Below are positions 41,918 to 46,873 of a DNA stretch of 64,000 nucleotides, piece after piece (positions within the stretch are counted from its first letter, which is position 1; the number at the start of each line of letters is the position of its first letter). The notes under the pieces were generated by a model. That model had not been told where the DNA came from and did no database searches. It worked only from the letters and a program-made list of their open reading frames with translations. Made by a program: the position numbers and the translations under genes. This DNA comes from Sneathiella sedimenti (GTDB lineage Bacteria > Pseudomonadota > Alphaproteobacteria > Sneathiellales > Sneathiellaceae), in contig NZ_JAFLNC010000001.1 of NCBI RefSeq assembly GCF_017313765.1, positions 496,001 through 560,000 on the forward strand, written 5' to 3'.

Positions 41918-42379
41918 GTGACGAAAAACCCTGACTCGCGCGATGCGGTTGCCCTGTTAATATTGCGGCTAGGTCTTGCATGGTTCCTCTTTGTCTGGGC
42001 CGTAAACAAGGTTTTAGAACCTGAGCAGTATATGCGCATCTGGGGCTATTTTCATGGTATCGATATTGGCGCAACCATGCCTTATGTCATGGGGGCTGCC
42101 CAGATTATCATTTGCGTCATGGCCGCGTTGGGGCTCTGGCGGACCCTGTCATATGGTCTTCTTTTTCTGATGCATCTGGTCACCGTGATCGTGATTTTCC
42201 CCAGCCTGATCGCCCCATTTGTGATCGAAGACGGATTTCCCGTTAATCGCAACAATTCGATTGCGCTCGCGACGCTGGCTGCATTTGCGGCCTTATGGAT
42301 GTTACGCCATCGGGATCACTATTCCCTCGATGCCTGGTTACAGCGGCGCAGGCGAGAAAGACGTCACCAGGTCAGCTGA
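41918..42379 (+). CDS. DoxX-like membrane protein
   Basis: A 153-residue protein with four hydrophobic helices of the DoxX/DoxD-like type: LLILRLGLAWFLFVWAVNKVLEPEQY (about 12-37) is the family start, followed by helices near 54-71, 77-95 and 116-133. The C-terminus is very basic (LQRRRRERRHQ). DoxX proteins are associated with quinone-linked redox in several bacteria; no function can be assigned here. The start is GTG 41918 with a GGGAG site. Its end overlaps the convergent quinone oxidoreductase by eight bases. Confidence 0.75.
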   Translation: MTKNPDSRDAVALLILRLGLAWFLFVWAVNKVLEPEQYMRIWGYFHGIDIGATMPYVMGAAQIIICVMAALGLWRTLSYGLLFLMHLVTVIVIFPSLIAPFVIEDGFPVNRNNSIALATLAAFAALWMLRHRDHYSLDAWLQRRRRERRHQVS

Positions 42380-43346
42380 CATGAATCAATGTTTTACCGA
42401 TTGCCTGCTGATTTTCCAGGCGGGCCAGAGCTGCCTTTGCCTGTTCAAGCGGAAATGTTCTGTCGATTGACGGCTTAACATGCCCCTGCTCGCAAAGCCT
42501 GAACAGGTCATTCATCACGTTGTTCGAAATGTCTGGCTGATACCAGGCCGTTGTTGACCAGTTCGCGCCGAGAACAGCATAAGATTTGATCAAGGGCATA
42601 TTCACGCCAAGTTCCGGTATCCGTCCCGACGCAAAGCCAACGATGAGTATCCGGCCTCCCCTTGCCATACGTCGTGAGCAGATATCGAAAAGATCGCCGC
42701 CGACAGGATCATAGACAACATCAACCCCTTTATTGTCGGTTAGTTCCTTTAACCGCTCATTCAGGTCTTCCACAGTGTAATTTACTACCACGTCGGCGCC
42801 CGCGGCTGTGGCCGATTTCATCTTTTGCTCGCTGGAGCAAACAGCAATAACCCGTGCCCCAAGGGCCTTGCCGATTTGAACGGCGTAATTTCCTGTGCCC
42901 CCGGCAGCGCCAAGCACAACAAGAGTTTCTCCCGGCATCAGGTGCCCACAGTATTTCAGTCCATACATAGCCGTTCCACCTGCCAGAGGAATGGCCGCAC
43001 CAATGTCATAGGATAGACTATCGGGAAGCCTGAAACACATCTGCTCTCTCACAGAGCTGTACTGTCCAAGCGCCCCCTGTCCCATACCGACGATCCGGTC
43101 GCCGACTTTGAGTCGTCGGCATTCCGATCCCGTCTCCCGGACAACCCCTGAAAATTCCAGCCCCAAAACAAAAGGCAGGTCTGGTTGATCCTGATAAAGC
43201 CCCCGCGGCTGCAGGACATCCGGAAAATTAAGGGCCGCCGTCTTGATTTCGACAATCAATCCACGCGGTCGCACCGCGGGTTTCGGGAACTCGCTTAGGG
43301 TCAGACTATCCAGACCCGTTGTCTCGGTAACAACAATCGCTTTCAT
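42372..43346 (-). CDS. NADPH:quinone oxidoreductase family protein (MDR superfamily)
   Basis: A 324-residue zinc-free medium-chain dehydrogenase/reductase. It has the substrate-side domain with GLEFSGVV (near 65) and the nucleotide-binding fold with VLGAAGGTGNYAVQIGKALGARVIAV (about 144-169). No structural-zinc cysteine loop is present, which separates it from alcohol dehydrogenases. Members reduce quinones or enones with NADPH. ATG 43346 is the family start. Divergent from the tandem HxlR gene, and the 110-base gap contains a 22-bp-spaced direct repeat, so it is a likely target of that regulator. Confidence 0.87.
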   Translation of the reverse strand: MKAIVVTETTGLDSLTLSEFPKPAVRPRGLIVEIKTAALNFPDVLQPRGLYQDQPDLPFVLGLEFSGVVRETGSECRRLKVGDRIVGMGQGALGQYSSVREQMCFRLPDSLSYDIGAAIPLAGGTAMYGLKYCGHLMPGETLVVLGAAGGTGNYAVQIGKALGARVIAVCSSEQKMKSATAAGADVVVNYTVEDLNERLKELTDNKGVDVVYDPVGGDLFDICSRRMARGGRILIVGFASGRIPELGVNMPLIKSYAVLGANWSTTAWYQPDISNNVMNDLFRLCEQGHVKPSIDRTFPLEQAKAALARLENQQAIGKTLIHVS

Positions 43347-43393
43347 TCTTCTTATTCCGTCTTGCTGCTCTGAAAAATCAGGATAGCGCCAAT

Positions 43394-43425
43394 AAGTCTC
43401 ATATTGCAAGTATAAAAGTCTCGTA
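43394..43425. promoter_or_regulatory. Direct-repeat operator candidate between quinone reductase and tandem HxlR genes
   Basis: AAGTCTCATA (43394-43403) and AAGTCTCGTA (43416-43425) share nine of ten bases and start 22 bp apart, two turns of the helix. They lie in the 110-base divergent gap (43347-43456). A regulator carrying two HxlR domains in direct tandem could bind such a direct repeat. Inference only. Confidence 0.5.
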
Positions 43426-43456
43426 CTGAAAGCACATAAATGATATACAGACCTGT

Positions 43457-44392
43457 ATGTTACAGCATGAAATTCTGCCGGACAGCAGCTGTTCCGTTGA
43501 GCGGTCCTTCGAAATTTTGGGCGGTGCCTGGACCTTCCTGGTGCTGAGAGAAGCCGTGTTTGAAAATGTCGTCCAGTTCGATAATTTTCAATCCAATCTC
43601 GGCATTGCGCGCGAGTCCTTGAAACGTGTGCTCAACCGTCTCGTGCGCAATGGCGTCATGGACCATCGCCCACTCGCGCCGGGGGGATTGCGAAAAGGAT
43701 ATTTTCTTACGGAACAAGGTCGGGATCTGTTGCCTGCCCTGGTGGCAGCACTTAACTGGGGTGAAGTATGGGCCAATGAAGGTCCTGCACCTGAGCGCCT
43801 GACACATAAGCAATGCGGCCACGCTCTTGAGCAGGCTGTAGTCTGTTCTCATTGCCACGTTCCAGTGGATCCGCGGGACGTCAGCTTCACAAGTAAAATA
43901 AGGAACCGTAGCAAGGGGCGCGAGAAATTCGCGAAAATGCGCTATGTAGAGCAGACACTGCTTGAACGCCAGCGCCCCAGCTCCATTGCGCGGACCATGG
44001 CAACGATCGGCGATCCATGGAGCTTTCTGATTATTCGCGAATGCTTTTACGGTATTCGACGATTTGATGCCTTCCAGCAACGACTCTCCATTGCCAGCAA
44101 TATCCTGACCGCGCGATTGAAGCGACTGCTCGCGGCAGGTGTGCTGCGGACACAGCCCGTTGCTGATCAGCCCCATCTCTCCGAGTATCGATTAACCGAA
44201 AAGGGAATGGCGCTCTATGCTGTTCCGCTAACCATTATCGCCTGGGGCGACAAATGGCTCGCCGGGACAAATGGTCCCCCTTTGATCCTGACGCATAAAC
44301 GTTGCGGTCACGTTTTTTCGGCGGAACTTCGGTGCCGGAGTTGCGACGTCGGAATCACTCTTGATGATGTGGAGTATCAGGCGTTGGCATAG
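43457..44392 (+). CDS. Tandem HxlR-type transcriptional regulator (two HTH domains, two zinc ribbons)
   Basis: A 311-residue protein made of two similar halves. Residues 1 to about 150 have an HxlR winged helix (RSFEILGGAWTFLVLREAV) and a ribbon with HKQCG (Cys120), Cys130 and Cys133. Residues about 155-311 repeat it: RTMATIGDPWSFLIIRECF and HKRCG (Cys283), Cys293, Cys296. HxlR proteins normally act as dimers of about 110 residues, so this gene encodes a fused pseudodimer with added cysteine motifs. Its last 38 bases overlap the convergent acyl-CoA synthetase gene. No strong ribosome site is visible before ATG 43457. Confidence 0.85.
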   Translation: MLQHEILPDSSCSVERSFEILGGAWTFLVLREAVFENVVQFDNFQSNLGIARESLKRVLNRLVRNGVMDHRPLAPGGLRKGYFLTEQGRDLLPALVAALNWGEVWANEGPAPERLTHKQCGHALEQAVVCSHCHVPVDPRDVSFTSKIRNRSKGREKFAKMRYVEQTLLERQRPSSIARTMATIGDPWSFLIIRECFYGIRRFDAFQQRLSIASNILTARLKRLLAAGVLRTQPVADQPHLSEYRLTEKGMALYAVPLTIIAWGDKWLAGTNGPPLILTHKRCGHVFSAELRCRSCDVGITLDDVEYQALA

Positions 44393-46022
44393 TGCCGCCC
44401 GCCGCAACAACTGCTTTCGCCCATTTATAGTCCGGTTTGCCATTGGCATGCCGCATCACTTCGGGAACGATAAAAATTGCCTTAGGCAGCTTGTAGCGAG
44501 CGATATGGCGGGCCCCCTCACCGAGCAAGTCATTAGCGTCGACGGTGGCCTCCGGGTGCAGCGAAACAACAGCCGTTACTTCCCGTCCCCAGCGAGCACT
44601 CTCCCTTCCGACAACCAACACATCCTTTACCGCAGAATGATTCTTTATGGCCTCTTCAACTTCCTCGACAAAGATTTTTTCTCCACCGCTGTTGATAACA
44701 AGAGAATTCCTGCCGAGCAGCCGGACGAGACCTCCCGGAAGCAACTCAGCCCGATCACCTGCAATCGCAAACCGCTCTCCCTCCAGCTCTAGGAAGGTCT
44801 TTTTTGTTGCGGCTTCATCATTCAGATAGCCGATAGGCACGTAGCGCCTGCGTGCCCACCACCCTGTTCCGTCATGTCCGGGCTCGAGAAGCCCGGTACG
44901 ATTTTCGTTCAGGACCGCGTTTCCAGGCGACATTCGGAAGGTTCCCGGTAGGCTTCCGTCGATATCCTCCACATGCTGGCCTTGATTGCCACCTTCCGAG
45001 GATCCAAGAAAATCAAGAATGCGGGTCTTGGGAAGCAGCTTCAACAAGGCATGTTTGGATTTTGTCGACAGATGTGCACCGCTGTTCAGGAAGAAACGGA
45101 GCGAATTGAGGTTATGCCTGCCTGCCTTGATTCCCTCTATCAATGGAAGGGCGAAGGCATCACCGACAATCGAGATCATCACGATTTTTTCCCGCTCGAT
45201 GGTGTCCAGAATATCAACGGGATCCAGTTGATCCACTCGCCCCTGAATCACTACCGTGTTCCCTGCGAACAGGCCCATGATCGCATTCCATTGCCCGGCG
45301 GCATGCATGAACGGCGGCGCCGGCAGAACAGGCATTGTTCCCTCGGATGCAATGGCGGCGACTTCGTCAAGGCTCTCAATTATGCCTCTATCGATAAGTC
45401 GCCGCCCGCCCAGGACTGAAATCCAGATATCCCCCTGCCGCCAGAGCACGCCCTTTGGCTGACCGGTGGTGCCGCCGGTATAAAGGATATACAGATCGTC
45501 CGGGCTGTAAGGTAGATCCGGTGAGCTGGGTGAGGATGCCGCGATCAGGCTTTCGTAATCGATCGCCCCTTCAATGAAACTAGGCCCACCGTCATCTATT
45601 TCGATAAAATGCGTTAAACTCGGTACCTGATTGCGAATGGCCGCCAGTTTCTCGCCGAAACTTCGCTGATAAACAATTACGCGCGCCTGCGCATCATTGA
45701 GGAGGTAGGCAAGCTCCTCCTCGACATAGCGGTAATTTACATTGAACGGGGCGAGCCGTGCTTTGAAGGCGCCGAACATGGCCTCGAGATATTCATTACT
45801 GTTATGAAGATAAACTGCGAGGAGGTCCTGACCGGATTCCCAGTTCTGCAGATTGCTGCGTTCCGTATGACATCCTAATCCCAGGTCAAGCAATGCATTG
45901 GCCAGACAATTTGACCGGCTTGTAAATTCCGCGAATGTCCATCTTTTGTCCCGACAGACGATGGCCGTCCTCTCGGGAACCGCGGCGGTAATACAATCAA
46001 GGATCTGTGGTAAATGAAACAT
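44355..46022 (-). CDS. Acyl-CoA synthetase (AMP-binding, FadD3-like)
   Basis: An ATP-dependent carboxylate-CoA ligase of about 555 residues. AMP-binding motif LYTGGTTGQPKGVLWRQGD (near 175), the FLGSSEGGNQGQH region (about 315-330), and the C-terminal catalytic lysine in NGKPDYKWAK. A segment CHTERSNLQNWESGQDLLAVYLHNSNEYLEAMFGAFKARLAPFNVNYRYVEEE is typical of the acyl-CoA synthetases used for sterol side-chain or aromatic acids rather than long-chain FadD. ATG 46022 is chosen on family fit; a frame extends to 46073. The gene starts 56 bases after the enoyl-CoA hydratase, so they are probably co-transcribed. Confidence 0.88.
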   Translation of the reverse strand: MFHLPQILDCITAAVPERTAIVCRDKRWTFAEFTSRSNCLANALLDLGLGCHTERSNLQNWESGQDLLAVYLHNSNEYLEAMFGAFKARLAPFNVNYRYVEEELAYLLNDAQARVIVYQRSFGEKLAAIRNQVPSLTHFIEIDDGGPSFIEGAIDYESLIAASSPSSPDLPYSPDDLYILYTGGTTGQPKGVLWRQGDIWISVLGGRRLIDRGIIESLDEVAAIASEGTMPVLPAPPFMHAAGQWNAIMGLFAGNTVVIQGRVDQLDPVDILDTIEREKIVMISIVGDAFALPLIEGIKAGRHNLNSLRFFLNSGAHLSTKSKHALLKLLPKTRILDFLGSSEGGNQGQHVEDIDGSLPGTFRMSPGNAVLNENRTGLLEPGHDGTGWWARRRYVPIGYLNDEAATKKTFLELEGERFAIAGDRAELLPGGLVRLLGRNSLVINSGGEKIFVEEVEEAIKNHSAVKDVLVVGRESARWGREVTAVVSLHPEATVDANDLLGEGARHIARYKLPKAIFIVPEVMRHANGKPDYKWAKAVVAAGGTMPTPDTPHHQE

Positions 46023-46078: not shown

Positions 46079-46873
46079 TTAGTCTGACCAGAAATCCTTT
46101 GACAGTTCCCGGCGTTTCTTCCGGCTTTCTGCACTCTTGAAGTCCTTGAGGCCCGAGGACCCCCTTGCATAGGGCATGATCGGCACCTCGAAGGCCAGCG
46201 CACCCTGGACCGGCAAATCCGCGCTCTTGTTCAGGGCGAACTTGGTCCGGCGAACTGTCATCGGATGTTTTTGCAGCATGATATGCGTCAACTGGGCAAC
46301 CTGATCATCGAGTTCCTCCGGCGCGACAACGCGATTAACCAGATCATAGCGTTCCGCTTTTTCTGCCGTAAACATCATTCCGATCAGGTTCCATTCCTTC
46401 GCCTTGCGTCGCCCGGCAAATTTCGGAATGCGCGAGAGACCTCCCCAGCCAGGTGTAATATCCCAGTCAATTTCCGGCATACCCCAGCGCGACCGGTCTG
46501 TCGCCACAACAAAGTCACAGACAAGTGTCAACTCCAGGCCACCGCCTGTGCACACCCCATCCACAGCCGCGATGGTGACCGGCGTCAGGTCCTCGATCAG
46601 CTGGACCGTTTCCTGATAGAGACGAACCTGCCAGTAGGATTCATCTCCCTTCCATTCATTGAATTCTTTGATATCGTCGCCAGCACAGAAGGTATTGCCC
46701 GCCCCGCGCAGGATCATGACCCGGCATTCCCGGTCCGCGCGCACCGCAAGGATGGCATCCTTCAACTCCGCAGAAAGCTCCCGATCCAGCGCATTATGCA
46801 CTTCGGGCCGGTTCAATGTTATGGTGGTAACCGTGTCCTGGCGGTCGAAGATCAGCTTCTTATAGTCGCTCAT
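46079..46873 (-). CDS. Enoyl-CoA hydratase/isomerase (crotonase family)
   Basis: A 264-residue crotonase-fold enzyme. CoA-binding FCAGDDIKEF (about 62-71), the oxyanion hole loop GVCTGGGLELTLVCDF (about 105-120) with Glu, and MPEIDWDITPGWGG (about 130-143) with the second glutamate. Both catalytic acids appear present, so a hydratase is possible. The order acyl-CoA synthetase downstream and thioesterase divergent suggests a pathway for activation and beta-oxidation-type breakdown of one carboxylic acid. The substrate cannot be inferred. Confidence 0.88.
   Translation of the reverse strand: MSDYKKLIFDRQDTVTTITLNRPEVHNALDRELSAELKDAILAVRADRECRVMILRGAGNTFCAGDDIKEFNEWKGDESYWQVRLYQETVQLIEDLTPVTIAAVDGVCTGGGLELTLVCDFVVATDRSRWGMPEIDWDITPGWGGLSRIPKFAGRRKAKEWNLIGMMFTAEKAERYDLVNRVVAPEELDDQVAQLTHIMLQKHPMTVRRTKFALNKSADLPVQGALAFEVPIMPYARGSSGLKDFKSAESRKKRRELSKDFWSD

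Follow-up and report, generated by a model that had tools for sequence, protein, structure and literature searches.

A fused HxlR protein and its neighbours

The window analysed here comprises 64,000 nucleotides of the Sneathiella sedimenti genome. A gene on its forward strand (43457..44392) encodes a 311-residue tandem HxlR regulator, termed HxlR2, which was identified from the open reading frame list and Pfam. The chain contains two winged-helix domains of the family PF01638, an N-terminal one encoded at 43514..43780 (45.3 bits) and a C-terminal one encoded at 44006..44263 (62.8 bits), both exceeding the Pfam cut-off of 20.8 bits. Each domain is followed by a ribbon of the pattern H-x2-C-x9-C-x2-C, formed by His117, Cys120, Cys130, and Cys133 in ribbon 1 (43805..43855) and by His280, Cys283, Cys293, and Cys296 in ribbon 2 (44294..44344). 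The preliminary description of this DNA had proposed two HxlR winged helices, each with its own cysteine ribbon, and had placed the cysteines at these very positions; this layout was borne out, and both ribbons, including the two histidines, are invariant in all eight orthologues. Also invariant in all eight is Cys12 (codon 43490..43492), part of an N-terminal CSxxR segment. Its equivalent in the C domain is Ser175 in HxlR2 and a serine in three orthologues, and a cysteine in the other four of the eight. The two halves of HxlR2 are 35% identical, and single-domain relatives match the C-terminal half best. A Pfam match of CDC24_OB3 to the region of ribbon 1 (residues 114-148; 27.7 bits, cut-off 25.4) is probably spurious.

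HxlR2 shares the PF01638 fold and an N-terminal segment with a sensor-type cysteine (Cys12) with the single-domain HxlR/DUF24 proteins HxlR, YodB, HypR, and QsrR. It differs from these proteins, which act as dimers of two single-domain chains, in that a single chain holds both domains and both ribbons. The AlphaFold model of HxlR2 was of modest quality (mean pLDDT 65.3, pTM 0.59), with a low-confidence stretch of 34 residues (146-179), and did not settle how the halves pair. Foldseek matched the model to 2f2e, 4gcv, 5hs7, 7bzg, and 4a5n and, at rank 7, to 1p4x, in which case the overall arrangement was not matched (rmsd 14.8). The latter structure is SarS of Staphylococcus aureus. Like HxlR2, SarS carries two homologous winged helices of the wider MarR fold in one chain; unlike HxlR2, it belongs to the Sar family and is not known to have an HxlR domain or a ribbon.

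Divergent from hxlR2 on the reverse strand lies a gene (42372..43346) for a zinc-type MDR oxidoreductase with ADH_N and ADH_zinc_N domains. This protein resembles quinone oxidoreductases and is designated QOR below; its best model, the PIG3 quinone reductase family TIGR02824, scored 231.1 bits, below the cut-off of 296.8. In Corynebacterium glutamicum, QorR is a single-domain DUF24 member encoded divergently from qor2, and it reportedly acts as a redox-sensing regulator of this quinone oxidoreductase gene; QOR differs from the oxidoreductase of that system in scoring below the quinone-reductase family cut-off. The RrpA regulator of Campylobacter jejuni likewise adjoins a quinone reductase gene, mdaB, and binds inverted-repeat sites (PMC8765430). 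RrpB (60.2 bits, cut-off 175) and RrpA (31.5 bits, cut-off 185) gave the sole NCBIfam matches to the two-domain HxlR2, both far below the cut-offs, and these family models describe single-domain proteins of about 100 residues.

Two further reverse-strand genes follow hxlR2, encoding an acyl-CoA synthetase of the PRK07798 type (44355..46022), which is convergent with hxlR2, and an enoyl-CoA hydratase (46079..46873). The 3' ends of the hxlR2 and acyl-CoA synthetase genes share 38 bp (44355-44392). Among 25 genomes of the family, 22 had some match to HxlR2 at E<=1e-20, and both halves were matched in eight, which include S. sedimenti; the seven other proteins are 67-90% identical to HxlR2. In all eight genomes the gene order is QOR and hxlR2 divergent, followed by the acyl-CoA synthetase and enoyl-CoA hydratase genes pointing towards hxlR2. 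An orthologue of QOR (E<=1e-80) was present in exactly the same eight of the 25 genomes, which may form one clade, in which case this co-occurrence does not represent eight independent events. Outside the genus, the neighbours that are kept are the acyl-CoA synthetase, the enoyl-CoA hydratase, and a thioesterase-like gene. In a genome of another family, G379, the acyl-CoA synthetase and enoyl-CoA hydratase genes adjoin a fused regulator, and no QOR match was found within the 20 kb examined around it.

A conserved, directional repeat in the divergent gap

In front of hxlR2, the sequences AAGTCTCATA (from 43394) and AAGTCTCGTA (from 43416) form a direct repeat with a distance of 22 bp. Alignment of the orthologous gaps showed that the conserved unit is 17 bp long, AAGTCTCRTAYTGMAAG, and thus longer than the 10-mer of the preliminary description. 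Unit 1, AAGTCTCATATTGCAAG, occupies 43394..43410 and unit 2, AAGTCTCGTACTGAAAG, occupies 43416..43432, both read on the forward strand. That a fused HxlR protein faces a repeat in the gap shared with an oxidoreductase gene was confirmed, and an orthologous gap lacking the repeat, which would have spoken against its relevance, was not encountered: all eight gaps keep it, seven with both copies and one (G021) with one complete copy. The claim that the copies lie exactly two helical turns apart does not hold, as the spacing is 22 bp in five and 23 bp in two of the seven two-copy genomes, and the eighth genome has no second copy.

When the 110-bp gap was subjected to 1000 dinucleotide shuffles, a direct repeat matching at 14 or more of 17 positions arose in five of them. 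Stronger evidence for the repeat comes from column conservation: among the seven two-copy orthologues, 30 of the 34 columns within the units are invariant, compared to 31 of the 76 columns elsewhere in the gap. Copies of the unit with at most one mismatch were present in all eight genomes encoding HxlR2, solely at the hxlR2 locus; a reversed-pattern control gave seven matches at up to two mismatches across these genomes. The 17 family genomes without HxlR2 (11 at least 90% complete, six less than 90%) contained no copy with at most one mismatch, and the 19 sites found in them all had two mismatches, compared to 60 sites for the reversed-pattern control. As the unit at this stringency occurs only at the hxlR2 locus and is absent from the 17 other genomes, it is specific to the gene pair and travels with it. 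The repeat system is thus real, conserved, and specific.

The 15-bp cores of the units are GTCTC-N5-GCAAG (unit 1) and GTCTC-N5-GAAAG (unit 2), giving the consensus GTCTC-N5-GMAAG in the same direction. When the arms are compared as an inverted repeat, two of five positions match in unit 1 and three of five in unit 2. The units, as candidate operators, are therefore lopsided and directional; they have the same overall size as the sites of single-domain HxlR/DUF24 proteins, which in contrast are palindromic. A palindrome over unit 1, CAATA-N7-TATTG, was set aside, as inspection of the alignment showed that its left flank differs in the other orthologues.

Since a strict sigma-70 scan of the gap detected a promoter for neither gene, we infer both promoters from conservation. 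The putative QOR promoter, TTGCAA-N18-TATCCT, lies at 43380..43409 on the reverse strand, and its pattern, TTG[CT][AG]A-N17/18-TAnnnT, which was composed after the alignment had been seen, is kept in seven of the eight orthologues, with a spacer of N18 in S. sedimenti and N17 in the other six. Unit 1 would cover the -35 element and the spacer of this promoter. For hxlR2, a TAT-type -10 element located 6-7 bp from the ATG is conserved in these same seven, which are the two-unit orthologues; in S. sedimenti it presumably corresponds to TATACA (43444..43449, forward strand), 7 bp before the ATG. This proximity suggests a leaderless mRNA. No -35 element can be recognised for the hxlR2 promoter; unit 2 would overlap its -35 region.

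Sites of single-domain relatives and other fused HxlR proteins

HxlR proteins on DNA are dimers of identical chains, and the complex of B. subtilis HxlR with DNA has a distance of 34.8 angstrom between its recognition helices (PMC7835342); by our own conversion this distance is about 10 bp and not 22 bp. YodB prefers the 15-bp site TACT-N7-AGTA (PMC8063818). The size of the YodB site and the helix distance of HxlR indicate that one unit fits one HxlR pair, and the helix distance further indicates that units separated by 22 bp do not match the two winged helices of a pair.

Upstream regions of single-domain relatives were obtained from 28 of 30 loci, as the starts of two could not be located. 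Seven of the 28 regions, from four genera, contain the palindrome GTTCC-N5-GGAAC, which has the geometry of the HxlR2 units. Some perfect arm5-N5-arm5 palindrome was present in 16 regions and absent from 12. After removal of five same-genus duplicates, 11 of 23 regions retained a perfect N5 palindrome, compared to an expectation of 3.6 and a maximum of 8 in 100 shuffles. Spacers of 3 and 7 bp each gave a count of 10, and across 21 spacers the counts in 100 shuffles reached up to 11; the repeated occurrence of the word GTTCC is therefore stronger evidence than the count for this spacer. A search for the consensus GTTTC-N5-GAAAC in 35 upstream regions mostly gave results no better than those for shuffles. 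At three loci of one genus (L093, L094, and L096 in genomes G185, G057, and G282), a single-domain HxlR gene with a ribbon is preceded by two perfect copies of the GTTCC-N5-GGAAC palindrome, in each case exactly 33 bp apart.

Among 398 sampled genomes of the phylum, 10, including S. sedimenti and one outside the class, had a match to a fused double-ribbon HxlR protein at E<=1e-48, and the two-domain layout was seen at ten other places of this search. Further fused proteins were found beyond the sample in G379, G087, and G122. When 13 other fused genes were examined, the unit pattern was absent from the upstream regions of 10 (P > 0.1 in shuffles). A match with three mismatches in G711 (P 0.005) was not relied on, as 13 regions were tested. 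For the same reason, the single, weaker unit of G379, GTCTT-N5-GCAAG, constitutes weak evidence (P 0.015 in shuffles). One of the two fused proteins of G087 (G087a) is preceded by two copies of GTTTC-N5-GCAAC that point the same way and lie 32 bp apart. The halves of G087a are 53% identical, and its site arms match at four of five positions; those of the G379 protein are 34% identical, and its site arms match at one of five (arms delimited by eye). Site symmetry thus tends to follow protein symmetry, a trend drawn from three proteins with a counter-example in G648b, whose halves are 37% identical, yet whose candidate site, GCGACT-N5-AGTCGC (by eye), is symmetric. A second fused subfamily, in which the N half begins with CSIWR, comprises G648b, G122, G711, G733, G729, and G752, with G689 joining in the tree; a search of its members for a common site established none.

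In a quick tree of 60 rows, from which six nearly identical Sneathiella halves and 11 rows of single-domain proteins were left out, the N halves, the C halves, and the remaining single-domain proteins were placed mostly apart (5 label changes, compared to a mean of 28.7 after shuffling). Because support at the base was weak, the tree does not distinguish one fusion event from several. Ten neighbours of other fused genes, picked by eye among the matches listed, encode three thiolases, three RPE65-type oxygenases, one CoA-transferase, one acyl-CoA synthetase, one aldehyde dehydrogenase, and one GST; unpicked neighbours, again by eye and among the matches listed, include ABC-transporter genes at G666. 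Genes of the RPE65/carotenoid-oxygenase type lie near the fused genes at L081, L083, and L086 (G711, G697, and G729), from three genera. The second fused HxlR gene of G087 (L079, contig C84), whose product is 48% identical to the first, is preceded in the same direction by a gene that by eye is GST-like. A phrase search of a library of papers for tandem or double HxlR found none, and a broader search gave none on a fused HxlR by title among the matches listed.

A model for operator recognition and its alternatives

We propose that HxlR2 forms an internal pseudodimer of its N and C domains, that each chain reads one lopsided unit, and that the protein in this way controls its own promoter and that of QOR; judged from the sequence evidence, the probability of this reading is roughly one half. 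The N and C winged helices would pair within one chain, in the manner of the two chains of an ordinary HxlR dimer, and would jointly read one 15-bp site of the form arm5-N5-arm5. This site would be lopsided and directional rather than palindromic because the halves of HxlR2 have diverged to 35% identity. Two chains would occupy the two head-to-tail units, 22-23 bp apart, one at each of the divergent promoters, with the chain on unit 1 sitting over the -35/spacer region of the QOR promoter and that on unit 2 over the -35 region for hxlR2. From these positions over both promoters, binding would most likely repress QOR and hxlR2 until a signal releases the protein. As a guess, the C domain might recognise the left arm AAGTCTC, which is similar to AAGTTCC of some single-domain relatives, and the N domain, itself divergent, the divergent right arm.

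The preliminary description had matched the direct order of the halves in the protein to DNA words repeated directly about two turns apart, so that one fused molecule would bridge both repeats and each winged helix would hold one AAGTCTC. The low-confidence stretch 146-179 of the model might permit such an unusual geometry, but winged helices from halves this dissimilar would need to recognise an identical word, and they would have to be about 75 angstrom apart rather than the 34.8 angstrom given for HxlR (PMC7835342). Moreover, the 17 bp conserved per repeat have the size of a whole dimer site, the spacing varies by 1 bp, G021 has a single unit, and 15-bp palindromes of this geometry occur once or twice in front of several single-domain relatives. 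We regard bridging as distinctly improbable. A four-winged-helix complex spanning both units, formed by N:N and C:C pairing of two fused chains, would agree with the formation of HxlR dimers from identical chains (PMC7835342), and two units could hold four winged helices. Such a complex predicts one N-type and one C-type palindrome, but the units are copies of a single lopsided sequence and share one orientation, and one unit is left in G021; it is an improbable alternative.

The sign of control is a separate matter, since activation of one promoter instead of repression of both would be compatible with binding of an N:C pair to each unit. B. subtilis HxlR is an activator of hxlAB (PMC9224381 and PMC7835342), and the lack of a recognisable -35 element at the hxlR2 promoter, likewise missed by the strict scan, would suit an activator. 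Unit 1, however, lies in a repressor position on the putative -35/spacer of QOR, and unit 2 overlaps the -35 region proposed for hxlR2, which makes activation rather unlikely. Least probable in our view is that a different regulator uses the repeats, which would then be tied to HxlR2 only by linkage to the gene pair. The block and the genes are conserved together, possibly in a single clade, but no further copy with up to one mismatch was found in the eight genomes and none in the 17 relatives, which makes a regulator with a larger regulon unlikely. In addition, similar units precede the fused HxlR gene of G087 and, weakly, that of G379, in both cases beside other genes.

If HxlR2 responds to a signal as the N:C model assumes, the ribbons are unlikely to perceive quinones through their cysteines, as had been suggested. 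With four Cys/His ligands in two knuckles in all eight orthologues, both ribbons look like structural zinc sites, and H/C3 ribbons of this kind are common to many, though not all, alphaproteobacterial single-domain relatives. QOR, moreover, falls short of the quinone-reductase cut-off, and the neighbours kept encode the acyl-CoA synthetase, the enoyl-CoA hydratase, and the thioesterase-like protein. Sensor cysteines have been described for YodB (Cys6; PMC8063818) and HxlR (Cys11; PMC7835342), and Cys12 of HxlR2 appears to be equivalent to them in position. The signal might be an electrophilic or acyl-CoA-pathway metabolite, perhaps acting via Cys12, but this is a guess; a quinone and an intermediate of acyl-CoA or enone catabolism are equally good candidates.

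A tentative evolutionary extension of the N:C model, which we consider possible but somewhat short of even odds, is that fusion allowed the halves to diverge and the palindromic operator to become directional. The chain would then be a built-in heterodimer with polarity on DNA, tandem copies would stack head to tail, and a single divergent gap would hold two molecules in identical orientation, each at its own promoter. If this is true, HxlR2 would provide a compact directional DNA-binding module, and a single-domain protein with a palindromic site and a fused protein with a lopsided site would offer a natural comparison of how the symmetry of an operator depends on that of its protein. The scattered fused HxlR proteins of alphaproteobacteria would then represent a natural series for studying the decay of operator symmetry after domain fusion.
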